This document shows, piece after piece, positions 34,699-41,705 of a stretch of DNA of 64,000 nt (within the stretch, counting starts at the first letter, position 1; every line of letters begins with the position of its first letter). A model generated the notes under the pieces. That model did not search any database. It worked only from the letters and a program-made list of their open reading frames with translations, and was not told where the DNA came from. Origin of the DNA: Egibacteraceae bacterium (GTDB lineage: Bacteria; Actinomycetota; Nitriliruptoria; Euzebyales; Egibacteraceae); NCBI GenBank assembly GCA_040905805.1, contig JBBDQS010000146.1:1-64000 (forward strand), given 5' to 3'. The position numbers and the translations under genes were made by a program.

Positions 34699-35337
34699 CT
34701 ACCGGTGTCCGACCAGTGTGGCGAAGACGACCACGTTGTCGAGGTAGTGCCCGGCGGCGCCATCGAACGCGCCGCCGCACGTGATCAGACGCAACTCGGC
34801 GCGATCGGTGTGGCCGTAGACGAGGGACGTCGGGAAGTCGGCTTTGGCGTAGCGGCCGACCGTGTCGACCCGAAACCGGGCGGTCAGCCCATCGGCGCGC
34901 GCGACCAGGATGTCGTCACCCGGCCGGAGGTCGGCAAGGTCGAAGAACACCGACGGCCCCTGGGCCGCGGAGTCGACGTGCCCGACGATGATGGCGGGGC
35001 CAGGGGAGCCTGGGCCGACCGAGTGCTTGTACCAGGCCGCCTCGTTGTAGTGCGGTCCCGGCGCTGGCACCTGCATGATGTTCTCGTCGGTGAGCCCGAC
35101 CCGCTGCAGCGGCGAGCGCACCCCGATGGCCGGGATGTCGATGGAGACCGGGAAGGACGGGGGAAGCGCAGACCCGTCGTCGCGGGCGACGGATTCGGAC
35201 GGTGCAGAGGCGGCCCCAGTCGGCATGACCTCCACCGCGATGGCGGTCGTGCCGCCGGCCGCCAGGACACACGCAGCCGTCAGGACGGCAAGCTTGCGGC
35301 TGCGGTGCACGACCACCGCCTTCGTCGGCTGGATCAC
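34699..35337 (-). CDS. Class E/F sortase
   Basis: A 212-aa membrane-anchored transpeptidase (transmembrane helix at about 15-35). The sortase barrel shows the catalytic histidine H120 (VGHVDS) and cysteine C187 in LITC, with the arginine expected further on. Class F-like enzymes are common in actinobacteria, but their substrates are poorly defined. The start is GTG 35337, overlapping the stop of the ice-binding-like gene (GTGA), so the two were one operon. The only candidate substrate next to it is now truncated. Confidence 0.85.
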   Translation of the reverse strand: MIQPTKAVVVHRSRKLAVLTAACVLAAGGTTAIAVEVMPTGAASAPSESVARDDGSALPPSFPVSIDIPAIGVRSPLQRVGLTDENIMQVPAPGPHYNEAAWYKHSVGPGSPGPAIIVGHVDSAAQGPSVFFDLADLRPGDDILVARADGLTARFRVDTVGRYAKADFPTSLVYGHTDRAELRLITCGGAFDGAAGHYLDNVVVFATLVGHR

Positions 35338-36332
35338 GTCGGGGGGCGCTGACCGGGACGACGCGGACGGGCGATGACGACCGCTCCGGCGCTGAGGAGG
35401 AGGCCGTATCCGAGGCCGAGAAGGACGATGTGGTGGCCCCCAGCCGTCGAGCCACCACCGGCCGGCACGCCGCCCGTCGGGGGAGTCGTGCGCGTCGGCG
35501 GGGTGCCGCCGGTGGGGGTGCCGCCGGTGGGCGTCCCGACCGTGGGGGTGCCGCCGGTGGGCGTGCCGACCGTGGGGGTGCCGGAGGTCGGGGTGTCGCC
35601 GGTGGGCGTGCCGACCGTGGGGGTGTCGCCGGTGGGGGTAGCGACCGTGGGGGTGCCGCCGGTGGGGGTGTCGACCGTGGGGCTGCCACTGACGGGGATG
35701 CTGACGGTGGGGGTGGGGACCGGGGTGGCTGTCGGCGTCGGCGTGGGCGTGGGGGTCAGCGTGGGCGTCGGCGTCGGCGTCGCGAGCGGCGTGCACGCGG
35801 CGCGCGTGATGGTGTTGGTGTCCATGGTGACCGCACCGTTTCGGGCCATCGCTCGACCGTCGATGACGGCGCCGGTGTTGAGGGAGATGGAGGTCAACGC
35901 CAGGATGTTGCCCTTGAACGATGTGCGCGTGCCCAGGGTCGCTGAGCTACCCACCTGCCAGTAGACATTGCAGGCATCGGCGCCGTTGATGAGGTTCACC
36001 CGGCTGTCCGTGGCGGTGACGAGCGTCGTGGGCATCGTGAAGATGAAGACTGCGTTGCCATCGCCGGCGGCGTCGAGGGTGAGCGTGCCCGTCATCCCGA
36101 ACGTCCCCGACGCGGACGTGTAGACCCCGGGTGCGAGCGTCTGCCCGCCGAGCTCCGTGGCGGTCGTGGTCACCGGCTGACGGCCGGCGGCGTCGGTGTA
36201 GGCGGTCACCAGGTCGGTCTTGGCCTGCTCGGCGACGGCGTCGGCGATGTGGAGCTCGCCCGCCATCGTGACCGAATCGAACCCGGTCACCGAGCTGCCG
36301 GGGTGCAGACCGACGTCGCGGCACCCGGGCAC
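35334..36332 (-). pseudogene. 5'-truncated ice-binding-like (DUF3494) surface protein
   Basis: The frame holds most of a DUF3494 beta-solenoid (SVTGFDSVTMAGELHIADAVA, ELGGQTLAPGVYTS, FKGNILALTSISLNTGAVIDGR). It is followed by a long Thr/Pro/Gly repeat stalk and a C-terminal hydrophobic helix with a basic tail, a cell-surface anchor. The usual signal peptide and first strands are missing: similarity starts abruptly near 36320, and a TAG stands directly before the GTG at 36332. Without a signal sequence it could not be exported. It was translationally coupled to the sortase. Confidence 0.75.
35480..35800 (-). repeat. Tandem Thr-Pro/Gly-rich coding repeats
   Basis: Repeated units such as GTGGGGGTGCCGCCG and variants encode the stalk TPTVGTPTGG of the ice-binding-like protein. 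The last part (35705-35790) is a run of TPTPT codons. Such repeats vary in number by slippage. The units are imperfect and contain no CRISPR-like spacers. Confidence 0.75.
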
Positions 36333-39319: not shown

Positions 39320-39772
39320 ATGTCGTCGATCAGGATCTCGTTGTTGGGACTCGTGGCCGCGTTGGCCGTCGCCGGGACCGCGTGCACCCCCCAGGAGCCC
39401 GACGTCACCCCCGAGGAACAGGTGGGCGCCGCGCAGCGTCCCGAGGAGCCCGCCGAGAACGGCGAGGACGCCGGCGATGACGCCGAGGGCGAGGGTGGCG
39501 GCGAGACCGTCACCTTCGTCGCCGAGGACATCCTCTTCGCCGACGCCCCGAGCGAGGTCCCGGCGGGCAGCGTCACCTTCGAGCTGCTCAACGACGGCAG
39601 CGCCGACCACGACGTCACGATCGACGACCTCGGCGGCGAGCCCATCGTGGAGGCCCCCGGTGGCGAGACCGCGACCGGCACCGCCGAGCTCGAACCCGGC
39701 GAGTACGAGTACTACTGCTCCGTCCCCGGTCACAAGAGCAGCATGAACGGCACGTTCACCGTCACCGAGTAG
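39320..39772 (+). CDS. Cupredoxin (plastocyanin-like) lipoprotein
   Basis: A 150-aa copper protein expected on the outer face of the membrane. The signal ends in a lipobox (VAGTAC) with the lipidated C22. An acidic linker (23-62) precedes a cupredoxin barrel. The type-1 copper ligands are visible as H97, C133, H138 and M142 (YYCSVPGHKSSM). It may shuttle electrons or handle copper. GAAGGAG lies upstream of ATG 39320. The hairpin at 39787-39821 follows, and a membrane protein of unknown role starts 148 bp downstream. Confidence 0.88.
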   Translation: MSSIRISLLGLVAALAVAGTACTPQEPDVTPEEQVGAAQRPEEPAENGEDAGDDAEGEGGGETVTFVAEDILFADAPSEVPAGSVTFELLNDGSADHDVTIDDLGGEPIVEAPGGETATGTAELEPGEYEYYCSVPGHKSSMNGTFTVTE

Positions 39773-39786
39773 CCGAGCAGGTCGAC

Positions 39787-39821
39787 ACCGCCGTCCGGGC
39801 CCTGTGCTACCGGACGGCGGT
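39787..39821 (+). terminator. 12-bp perfect hairpin after the cupredoxin gene
   Basis: Arms 39787-39798 and 39810-39821 pair perfectly over 12 bp with an 11-nt loop, 15 bp after the cupredoxin stop. There is no T-run, so it may be a terminator or an mRNA-protecting stem that separates the two genes' expression. Confidence 0.55.
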
Positions 39822-39920: not shown

Positions 39921-41705
39921 ATGGGCATCGTCGTGGCGCACGGGGTCGGGGCGTGGGCGTGGCTGGCCGTCCCGTTGACGGGTTACGTGGTCGTCACCGC
40001 GATCCTGGCGGTCACCGGCCGCAGCACCAACCGCGAAGCGGTCATCCACTTCATGGAGCGGGTCTCCGACAGCCTGCGCCGGCTGACGGGGTTCCCGGGC
40101 TGGGCGATGGCCGGGGTGCTGTCGAGCCTGGTCATGCTGCTGATCGTCGTCGTCGGCTTCTACTGGGACGTCGCCTGGCACATCGACCTCGGTCGCGACG
40201 TGGTGCTGTTCACCCCGTCCCACGTGATGATCCTGGTCGGGCTCGGCGGGCTGGTGTACGCGGGGTTCGTCGCGATCCTGTTCGCCACGATCGACGACGC
40301 CCGCGTGGGGTTCGACCTGTGGGGCCTGCGGGTGCCCTACTCCGCGGTGCTGCTCCTCGCCCTGGGGACCGGCGCGGTGATCGGGTTCCCCCTGGACGAG
40401 CTCTGGCACCGCTCCTACGGCATCGACGTGACCCTGTGGAGCCCGACGCACCTGCAGCTGGTCGGCGGGGGCTCGGCGGCCACCATCGCGGCGCTGCTGA
40501 TGTGCGCCGAGGGCCTGCCATCCGCCCGACCCAACCGGCTCGGCCGCGCCATCGTCGTGCTGACGGCCGGCACCGTCCTCGTGGGCATGTCGACGTTCCA
40601 GGGGGAGTTCGACTTCGGCGTGCCGCAGTTCCAGCTGCTCTACCAGCCCCTGCTGGTCGCGGCTGCCGCCGGGTTCGCCCTGGTCCTCGCCCGGCTCGCG
40701 CTCGGCCCGTGGGGCGCGCTCAAGGTCGCCCTGGTCGCCCTGGCGCTGCGGGGGCTGCTCGCCCTGACGGTGGCCGGGGCGCTCGACCACACCGTGCCCC
40801 GCTTCCCGCTGTACCTCGGGTCCGCGTTGCTCGTCGAGGCGGTGGCCTGGCGGCTCGGCACCGCCCGCCGGCTGCGTGTGGGCATCCTGGCGGGGCTGGC
40901 CGTCGGCACGGTCGGCCTGCTCACCGAAGGCGGGTGGGCCCTGGCCACCGGGTGGTGGGACACCGCGCCGGCGCCGCTCGTGGTCGGCGCGCTGCTGCTC
41001 GGACCGGTCGCGGCGATCGCCGCGGCGGTCCTCGGTGCCGGGCTCTCGCGGGCGTTCCTGCCGCGCGCTGCGCCCCTGCCCGCGGCGGCGCTCGTGGCGG
41101 CCGGCGTGGCGCTGCTGGGTGTGCTCGCCTACCCCGCGCCGCGGCTGGTCGGCGAGGTCGAGGCGACGATCCGCCTGGACGTTGCGGGCGATACCGCCGA
41201 CGTCGAGGTCACCCTGCACCCCGCCGACGCCGCGGACAACGCCACCGCCTTCGTCCTGGCCTACTGGCAGGGGGGCGGCAGCGGGACGACCCCCCTCGAC
41301 GAGGTCGCCCCGGGCGTGTATCGCTCGACCGCTCCGGTGCCCGTGACCGGCAGCTGGAAGACCATGGTCAGCCTGCAGCGGGGCGCGCAGGTCATGGCCG
41401 CACCGGTCTACCTGCCCGCGGACCCCGAGATCGGTGCGTCGGCCGTCCCGGCGGTGGCCGAGCGTCGCGAGCCGTTCGTCCGCAACACCGAGGTGCTCCT
41501 GCGCGAGGCGACCGACGGGCCGGCCCTGCCGGGGGTGCTGGCCTACACGGGCCTGGCGACGCTCGTGGCCCTGTGGGTGGCGCTCATGGGGGTCACCGCT
41601 CGCCGCGTGGGGGCAGACGACGAGACGACCGAGCCCGCGGCGTCCCCGCCGGTGCTCGCCGGCGCGGAGCCACCGAGCATGGCAGGCAGCGCCGAGCGGC
41701 GGTAG
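39921..41705 (+). CDS. Uncharacterised polytopic membrane protein with duplicated His/Asp motif
   Basis: A 594-aa protein with about 12 hydrophobic helices, then an extracytoplasmic beta domain resembling YtkA/FixH (about 395-480) and a final helix near 545-565. Two motifs are 76 residues apart with identical spacing, D-x2-W-H-x3-G-x-D-x3-[FW]-[TS]-P-[ST]-H: D83/H87/D93/H101 and D159/H163/D169/H177. Paired His and Asp in or near helices suggest a metal or haem site with internal two-fold symmetry. YtkA-like domains and the cupredoxin upstream hint at copper or respiratory redox work. I do not recognise a named family. Confidence 0.8.
   Translation: MGIVVAHGVGAWAWLAVPLTGYVVVTAILAVTGRSTNREAVIHFMERVSDSLRRLTGFPGWAMAGVLSSLVMLLIVVVGFYWDVAWHIDLGRDVVLFTPSHVMILVGLGGLVYAGFVAILFATIDDARVGFDLWGLRVPYSAVLLLALGTGAVIGFPLDELWHRSYGIDVTLWSPTHLQLVGGGSAATIAALLMCAEGLPSARPNRLGRAIVVLTAGTVLVGMSTFQGEFDFGVPQFQLLYQPLLVAAAAGFALVLARLALGPWGALKVALVALALRGLLALTVAGALDHTVPRFPLYLGSALLVEAVAWRLGTARRLRVGILAGLAVGTVGLLTEGGWALATGWWDTAPAPLVVGALLLGPVAAIAAAVLGAGLSRAFLPRAAPLPAAALVAAGVALLGVLAYPAPRLVGEVEATIRLDVAGDTADVEVTLHPADAADNATAFVLAYWQGGGSGTTPLDEVAPGVYRSTAPVPVTGSWKTMVSLQRGAQVMAAPVYLPADPEIGASAVPAVAERREPFVRNTEVLLREATDGPALPGVLAYTGLATLVALWVALMGVTARRVGADDETTEPAASPPVLAGAEPPSMAGSAERR

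Follow-up and report, generated by a model that had tools for sequence, protein, structure and literature searches.

The copper site at which particulate methane monooxygenase performs its chemistry is still disputed, and recent work favours CuD or CuC, both of which belong to the PmoC subunit and are difficult to examine outside the complex of three subunits (PMC12576850). The ligands of CuC are D156, H160 and H173 and those of CuD are N227, H231 and H245 (PMC12576850), which in the numbering of that work places the six residues of the proteobacterial protein at offsets 0, 4, 17, 71, 75 and 89. Orphan pmoC genes have been reported for several methanotroph strains (PMC4463540, PMC6688271). Beside these known forms (PmoC/AmoC and the methanotroph orphans), we describe a PmoC-like family for which neither Pfam nor NCBIfam holds a model, and for which we found no description in the open-access literature searched. 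To judge by its sequence, the member analysed here is most likely an unrecognised stand-alone cousin of the C subunit of methane and ammonia monooxygenases.

The duplicated motif and its protein

The gene occupies positions 39921-41705 on the plus strand of the window, the stretch of 64,000 nucleotides of an Egibacteraceae contig (JBBDQS010000146.1) that was analysed. Its frame is open over 594 amino acids and its residues are as an earlier note on this DNA had given them. It is present as a single copy in the source genome, and within the order the only other orthologue (77% identity) is in a sister species of the same genus. The product, hereafter P0001, carries the motif D-x2-W-H-x3-G-x-D-x3-[FW]-[ST]-P-[ST]-H twice, 76 residues apart, and both copies fit this pattern exactly, as had been claimed. 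Motif 1 (residues 83-101, 40167-40223, plus strand) reads D83-VA-WH-IDL-G-R-D-VVL-F-T-P-S-H101 and motif 2 (residues 159-177, 40395-40451, plus strand) reads D159-EL-WH-RSY-G-I-D-VTL-W-S-P-T-H177. The reduced pattern D-x3-H-x5-D-x5-P-x-H had no copy in 200,000 shuffles of P0001, and six-frame translation of all fetched loci (2.0 million residues) showed the full motif only in members of the family; the motif is not explained by chance. The duplication extends past the motif, as 49 columns can be aligned between the profile of residues 60-130 and that of residues 133-204 (hhalign probability 97.3, E 2.3e-11). P0001 thus holds a true two-helix tandem repeat, each unit with one motif: unit 1 spans residues 66-114 (40116-40262, plus strand) and unit 2 residues 142-190 (40344-40490, plus strand).

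Alignment of 114 members indicated that D83, H87, G91, R92, H101, D159, W162, H163, G167, D169, P175 and H177 are invariant. The earlier note had named homologues without the duplicated motif as the finding that would count against it, and both Asp and all four His are present in 114/114. The invariance expected of the motif residues was found for D83, H87, H101, D159, H163, D169 and H177; W86, F97/W173, P99 and D93 vary, the last being Asp in 109 and Glu in 5 of the 114 homologues, and R92 is invariant though it formed no part of the motif as first written. A third conserved segment, E229-F-D-F-G-V-P-Q-F (40605-40631, plus strand), keeps its Glu in 111 of the 114 homologues. The patterns used in the scan of GTDB genomes included the last part of motif 2 and the segment around E229, and conservation there is therefore partly selected in that subset; motif 1 lay outside these patterns, and the members from the 397-genome search were recovered by a whole-profile search. 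In the long forms no His, Cys or Met is conserved besides the motif ligands.

The AlphaFold2 model of P0001 (pLDDT 93, pTM 0.92), which contains no metal, has about 13 long helices, where the earlier note gave 12, and a beta-sandwich at residues 414-518. In the model, D83 and H87 lie where helix 60-90 ends, and H101 where helix 99-124 begins. The second set is placed likewise, with D159 and H163 in the last part of helix 140-166 and H177 in the first part of helix 175-201, and E229 is at the end of helix 206-231. The loops 33-59 and 202-206 are Arg-rich and, by the positive-inside rule, the metal ligands would therefore be near the extracytoplasmic face. E229, on the same membrane face as the motifs, is a possible additional carboxylate ligand.

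The beta domain (residues 414-518, 41160-41474, plus strand) is immunoglobulin-like and is followed by a C-terminal membrane helix in the model (residues 535-568, 41523-41624, plus strand). A YtkA/FixH-like domain had been proposed at this end of the protein, and the arrangement of such a domain beside a membrane helix does recall FixH/CcoH (PF05751) and YtkA-like proteins (PF13115), as does a Foldseek match (probability 0.85) to a chain of 159 residues from an entry for a cbb3 oxidase. The likeness in sequence is faint, since FixH, the sole Pfam match of P0001, covers residues 417-489 at a sub-threshold E of 0.23, the FixH/YtkA matches in the family range from E 0.01 to 0.24, and the best reaches 16.3 bits against a FixH cut-off of 23. 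The domain is a minor part of the protein and is absent from the minimal Rubrobacter-type forms. A search among homologues revealed no conserved His, Cys or Met in it, which places it outside the metal site.

Comparison with PmoC and AmoC

Compared with Pfam, NCBIfam and the sequences of solved structures in the PDB, P0001 had no relative above threshold, and these direct searches gave nothing useful on its identity. The first check suggested in the earlier note, a comparison with the methane monooxygenase family, pointed to the right family. D83, H87 and H101 of motif 1 are equivalent to D156, H160 and H173 of CuC, with R92-D93 equivalent to the R-D pair of PmoC; D159, H163 and H177 of motif 2 are at the positions of N227, H231 and H245 of CuD, and D169 is at the position of an invariant PmoC Glu. 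The ligand offsets of P0001 are 0, 4, 18, 76, 80 and 94. Four short homologues have 0, 4, 17, 71, 75 and 89, identical to proteobacterial PmoC, and one minimal homologue has 0, 4, 17, 74, 78 and 92, the same as the three actinobacterial PmoC proteins that were fetched. The CuC ligands Asp-x3-His-x12-His are found in 114/114 members, with x12 in the short and minimal forms and x13-x14 in the long forms. For CuD, where the bacterial enzymes have Asn-x3-His-x13-His, the spacing is the same and the Asn is an Asp in 114/114. The family and PmoC also have in common an R-D pair that follows the first His, an acid ten positions beyond the first ligand in each half (+10) and a Pro at -2 of the last His.

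As PmoC had been picked as a candidate only after inspection of the motif, we ran unbiased searches. Among 24,736 Pfam models, hmmscan put AmoC (PF04896) first for two short homologues, as the sole match for the L008 protein (E 0.044) and ahead of others for P0005 (E 0.094), in both cases on the motif; in NCBIfam, AmoC_BACT was the top match of P0005 (E 0.014). Every score is under the family cut-offs: P0001 has no PF04896 match, the best relatives reach 12.5-13.6 bits against the curated 26.7, and the best relative reaches 14.7 bits against 319 for NF041641. With hhalign, the profile of 114 homologues against 12 PmoC/AmoC sequences scored 35.2 (pairwise E 2e-4); the highest score among 600 hydropathy-class-preserving permutations was 25.8, and the reversed profile reached 13.1. 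The first half alone matched the CuC region of PmoC with probability 90 and E 1.7e-6. The CuD half had no separate profile match and is backed by the identical spacing and by its register in the extended profile alignment.

The predicted fold was compared as well. PmoC was among the few Foldseek matches of the full model with probability above 0.8. When the six-helix core (residues 60-262, 40098-40706, plus strand; core model pLDDT 91) was compared in isolation with 350,542 PDB chains, AmoC came first and PmoC second; the PmoC/AmoC chains had probabilities of 0.77, 0.99 and 0.96, at E >0.1 and TM ~0.4, and no other fold exceeded 0.31 among the best 50 listed. A Foldseek search of the model against viral models returned noise only, and a scan of viral contigs for PmoC found none.

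Taken singly these results are weak, and each unbiased search (Pfam, NCBIfam, Foldseek) agrees on PmoC/AmoC. The resemblance might instead have arisen by convergence in an unrelated membrane family, as the low whole-length profile probability (8.6 to 46.6%), the modest TM value and the CuD half unmatched by profile could suggest. Against this, the two groups share the order and spacing of six ligands, the +10 acids, the R-D pair, the Pro before the second His and the order of helices with ligands at their ends, and PmoC/AmoC gives the best structural match of the core; we therefore consider convergence very improbable, and homology to PmoC together with a metal site highly probable.

There are also differences from PmoC/AmoC/HmoC (PF04896, TIGR03078, NF041641). 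The family has Asp where CuD has Asn, its half-sites are recognisably repeated in sequence whereas those of PmoC are not, its long forms add several membrane helices and the C-terminal beta domain, and it occurs without PmoA or PmoB. No internal repeat of PmoC was detected by profile comparison and, as the CuD half is also unmatched alone, an origin of PmoC by the same duplication is a hypothesis. Searches for PmoA (PF02461) and PmoB (PF04744) found neither in 32 family-positive genomes (0/32) and recovered both in the three actinobacterial genomes with true PmoC that served as positive control (3/3). Without these subunits there is neither the known substrate pocket nor a CuB site and, because the Asn of CuD is Asp throughout as well, we describe the protein as related to the C subunit without assigning it to that family. 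Like the orphan pmoC genes, it is a C subunit gene without adjacent pmoA and pmoB; the orphans, however, are recognised pmoC copies in methanotroph genomes that also carry pmoCAB, and here no A or B subunit was found in the 32 family-positive genomes.

The earlier note had suggested a symmetric site for metal or haem. The two-fold His/Asp metal site is favoured by the match to the CuC and CuD ligands, and haem is unlikely because the family has no match to haem-copper oxidases, NorB or FixN in Pfam, NCBIfam or the sequences of solved structures and its four conserved His correspond to the copper-site His of PmoC. Triads of two His and one carboxylate bind iron or zinc. Two symmetric Asp-His-His sets with a conserved Glu resemble a nonhaem iron site, CuD Asn is replaced by Asp and no soft ligands are conserved, and the protein might accordingly be a diiron-type oxidase or a metallohydrolase that holds iron or zinc; we judge this improbable, since copper is the metal of its structural relatives and the gene neighbourhoods repeatedly contain cupredoxins, CopC and copper ATPases. 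The metal is probably copper. The ligand set is apparently stronger than in PmoC, and symmetric.

Distribution and gene neighbourhood of the family

The scan of GTDB representative genomes gave at least 563 relatives (genome-contig matches), and the 80 that were kept are all actinobacterial by record titles except one labelled UNVERIFIED_ORG Bacillus. A search with a short-form profile found the family in 40/397 sampled genomes of the phylum Actinobacteria, in which it is therefore widespread. Minimal forms, which have about 330-376 aa and lack the C-terminal domain, came out of this search too. Short forms of about 480-500 aa are located on actinobacterial plasmids, as is one further long form. 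Four short forms (L005 5905-7374, L006 5917-7407, L008 5920-7365 and L009 7974-9401) have an invariant A-H-D-P-G-Q-G directly after a hydrophobic helix. This resembles a cleavage site for signal peptidase, and cleavage there would expose a His at the N-terminus, as in CopC and PmoB. Plasmid pMYCCH.01 of M. chubuense NBB4 carries both a true hmoCAB operon (L093 4067-7130) and a short-form PmoC-like gene (L005 5905-7374), and is a natural setting in which to compare the two.

In the window, the nearest upstream gene had been taken to encode a cupredoxin lipoprotein, and this is borne out: the gene at 39320-39772 on the plus strand, whose start was picked from the putative lipobox, lies 148 bp 5' of the PmoC-like gene, matches Pfam Cupredoxin_1 (E 7e-8) and has the type-1 copper ligand pattern (YYCSVPGHKSSM). 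Its product is a candidate redox or copper partner of the PmoC-like protein. The two genes are separated by a strong hairpin of 12 GC-rich base pairs at 39787-39821 (plus strand; z -2.0), which has no T tract and may be a terminator of a high-GC organism; co-transcription is therefore conjectural. Neither a T-tract terminator nor a sigma-70 promoter match was found between the genes. In the sister genome a different, divergent lipoprotein gene with a plausible type-1 copper ligand pattern (by eye) adjoins the PmoC-like gene. No oxidation genes adjoin the gene of the window. Further upstream, at 35334-36332 and 34699-35796 (-), a protein with a DUF3494-like (ice-binding/adhesion) N-terminal domain, recognised by eye, and a long TPT-rich repeat is encoded next to a class-E-sortase-like gene, probably a surface protein and its sortase.

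Analysis of 83 loci uncovered several recurrent neighbours. A MerR-family regulator is at position -1 in 35/83, mostly divergent; these regulators of about 250 aa adjoin the PmoC-like gene in several actinobacterial classes, and the example that was read has no Cys. Their ligand is unlikely to be a thiophilic metal. A membrane protein of about 434 aa and unknown family occurs in 19/83 loci, mostly at a distance of one or two genes; in eight cases a gene for a cupredoxin-like lipoprotein separates it from the PmoC-like gene. This membrane protein is a likely functional partner of the PmoC-like protein. It has 10-12 helices and starts with M(T)LLAHGVGSR.DLPIP (L067 and 18 other loci). The idea that it might be a PmoA-like protein or another known enzyme found no support: NCBIfam had no family for its full length, its first 150 residues had no significant match in Pfam, and a literature search under a candidate name gave nothing relevant. 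A count of type-1 copper signatures among the neighbours showed no general enrichment of cupredoxins.

A flavin monooxygenase is nearby in 12/83 loci, and the Baeyer-Villiger fingerprint FxGxxxHxxxW is present in 12/12; eight of these genes are directly downstream, several with a 4-nt overlap of the PmoC-like gene. These loci also repeatedly carry genes for SDR, alcohol dehydrogenase and alpha/beta hydrolase. Enzymes of these types (SDR or alcohol dehydrogenase, Baeyer-Villiger monooxygenase, hydrolase) serve the subterminal oxidation route from alkane to alcohol, ketone, ester and acid, and the PmoC-like protein may be tied to such a route.

The short plasmid forms are located in copper islands with CopA-type ATPases, CsoR-like regulators, multicopper oxidase, DUF305 and cytochrome c biogenesis genes: in Leifsonia with a CsoR-like regulator, CopA-type ATPases and a four-helix copper protein, in S. 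mirabilis with a cupredoxin and an ATPase, and on pFRL4 with a multicopper oxidase and ResB/CcsB. The long form on the plasmid of M. vanbaalenii JOB5 follows a CopC gene and is near genes for CtaG-like protein, TlpA, DUF305 and haem-copper oxidase subunit III. These neighbourhoods are consistent with a protein that acquires or transfers copper or confers tolerance to it, a counterpart of CopD/YcnJ in function and without catalysis, whose paired Asp-His-His sites would relay copper between the membrane, or a cuproenzyme, and a carrier outside it (CopC, cupredoxin); for the resistance islands the fit is as good as that of an oxygenase. The family shares with CopD/YcnJ importers the polytopic build, the CopC neighbour on one plasmid and the YtkA-like domain, but differs in having the ligand pattern of PmoC and no sequence match, with no CopD Pfam hit among 76 members at E 1. 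Moreover, most chromosomal long forms are outside copper operons and are linked to MerR, Baeyer-Villiger monooxygenase and SDR genes, and no Cys or Met, the usual ligands of Cu(I) transporters, is conserved. For the family as a whole we hold copper handling without catalysis to be rather unlikely.

Proposed function and significance

The earlier note had seen here a candidate for an undescribed redox or copper system. The family is indeed without a model in Pfam or NCBIfam, and P0001 is without a sequence relative in the PDB; for its redox or copper function we infer the following scheme. Most likely the protein is a membrane copper protein of PmoC type whose paired site is symmetric. The two half-sites would face each other near the extracytoplasmic membrane surface and could hold one mobile or two copper ions. 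The Asp in place of the CuD Asn would make the paired site symmetric, and E229 may complete it. The bound copper would be redox-active, with electrons or copper supplied by the exported cupredoxin, and may activate O2 and oxidise a small lipophilic substrate in the membrane, which would explain the recurrent coupling to Baeyer-Villiger monooxygenase, SDR and hydrolase genes.

As a whole, a stand-alone PmoC-type membrane metalloprotein whose redox-active copper would oxidise a small lipophilic substrate is the best explanation we can offer, and we give it about an even chance. Taken by itself, the oxygenase or oxidase function is put forward tentatively, at somewhat less than even. More speculative is the specific proposal that a single gene suffices for a copper membrane oxygenase: the PmoC-type subunit would work without PmoA and PmoB, its symmetric CuC/CuD pair would have arisen by tandem duplication, and it would feed alcohol, ketone and Baeyer-Villiger pathways. 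Long and short forms may differ in function: the oxidation operons favour oxygenation of a small lipophilic compound for the long forms, and the copper islands favour copper handling for the short ones.

A PmoC-type ligand set without PmoA and PmoB would allow copper binding, O2 binding and substrate oxidation to be probed directly. The family might also serve as an outgroup when the evolution of the C subunit is traced and, if the proposal is true, could preserve the symmetric form from which the two copper sites of PmoC diverged. It would also give a named function to hundreds of unannotated actinobacterial genes, some of them on copper-island plasmids.
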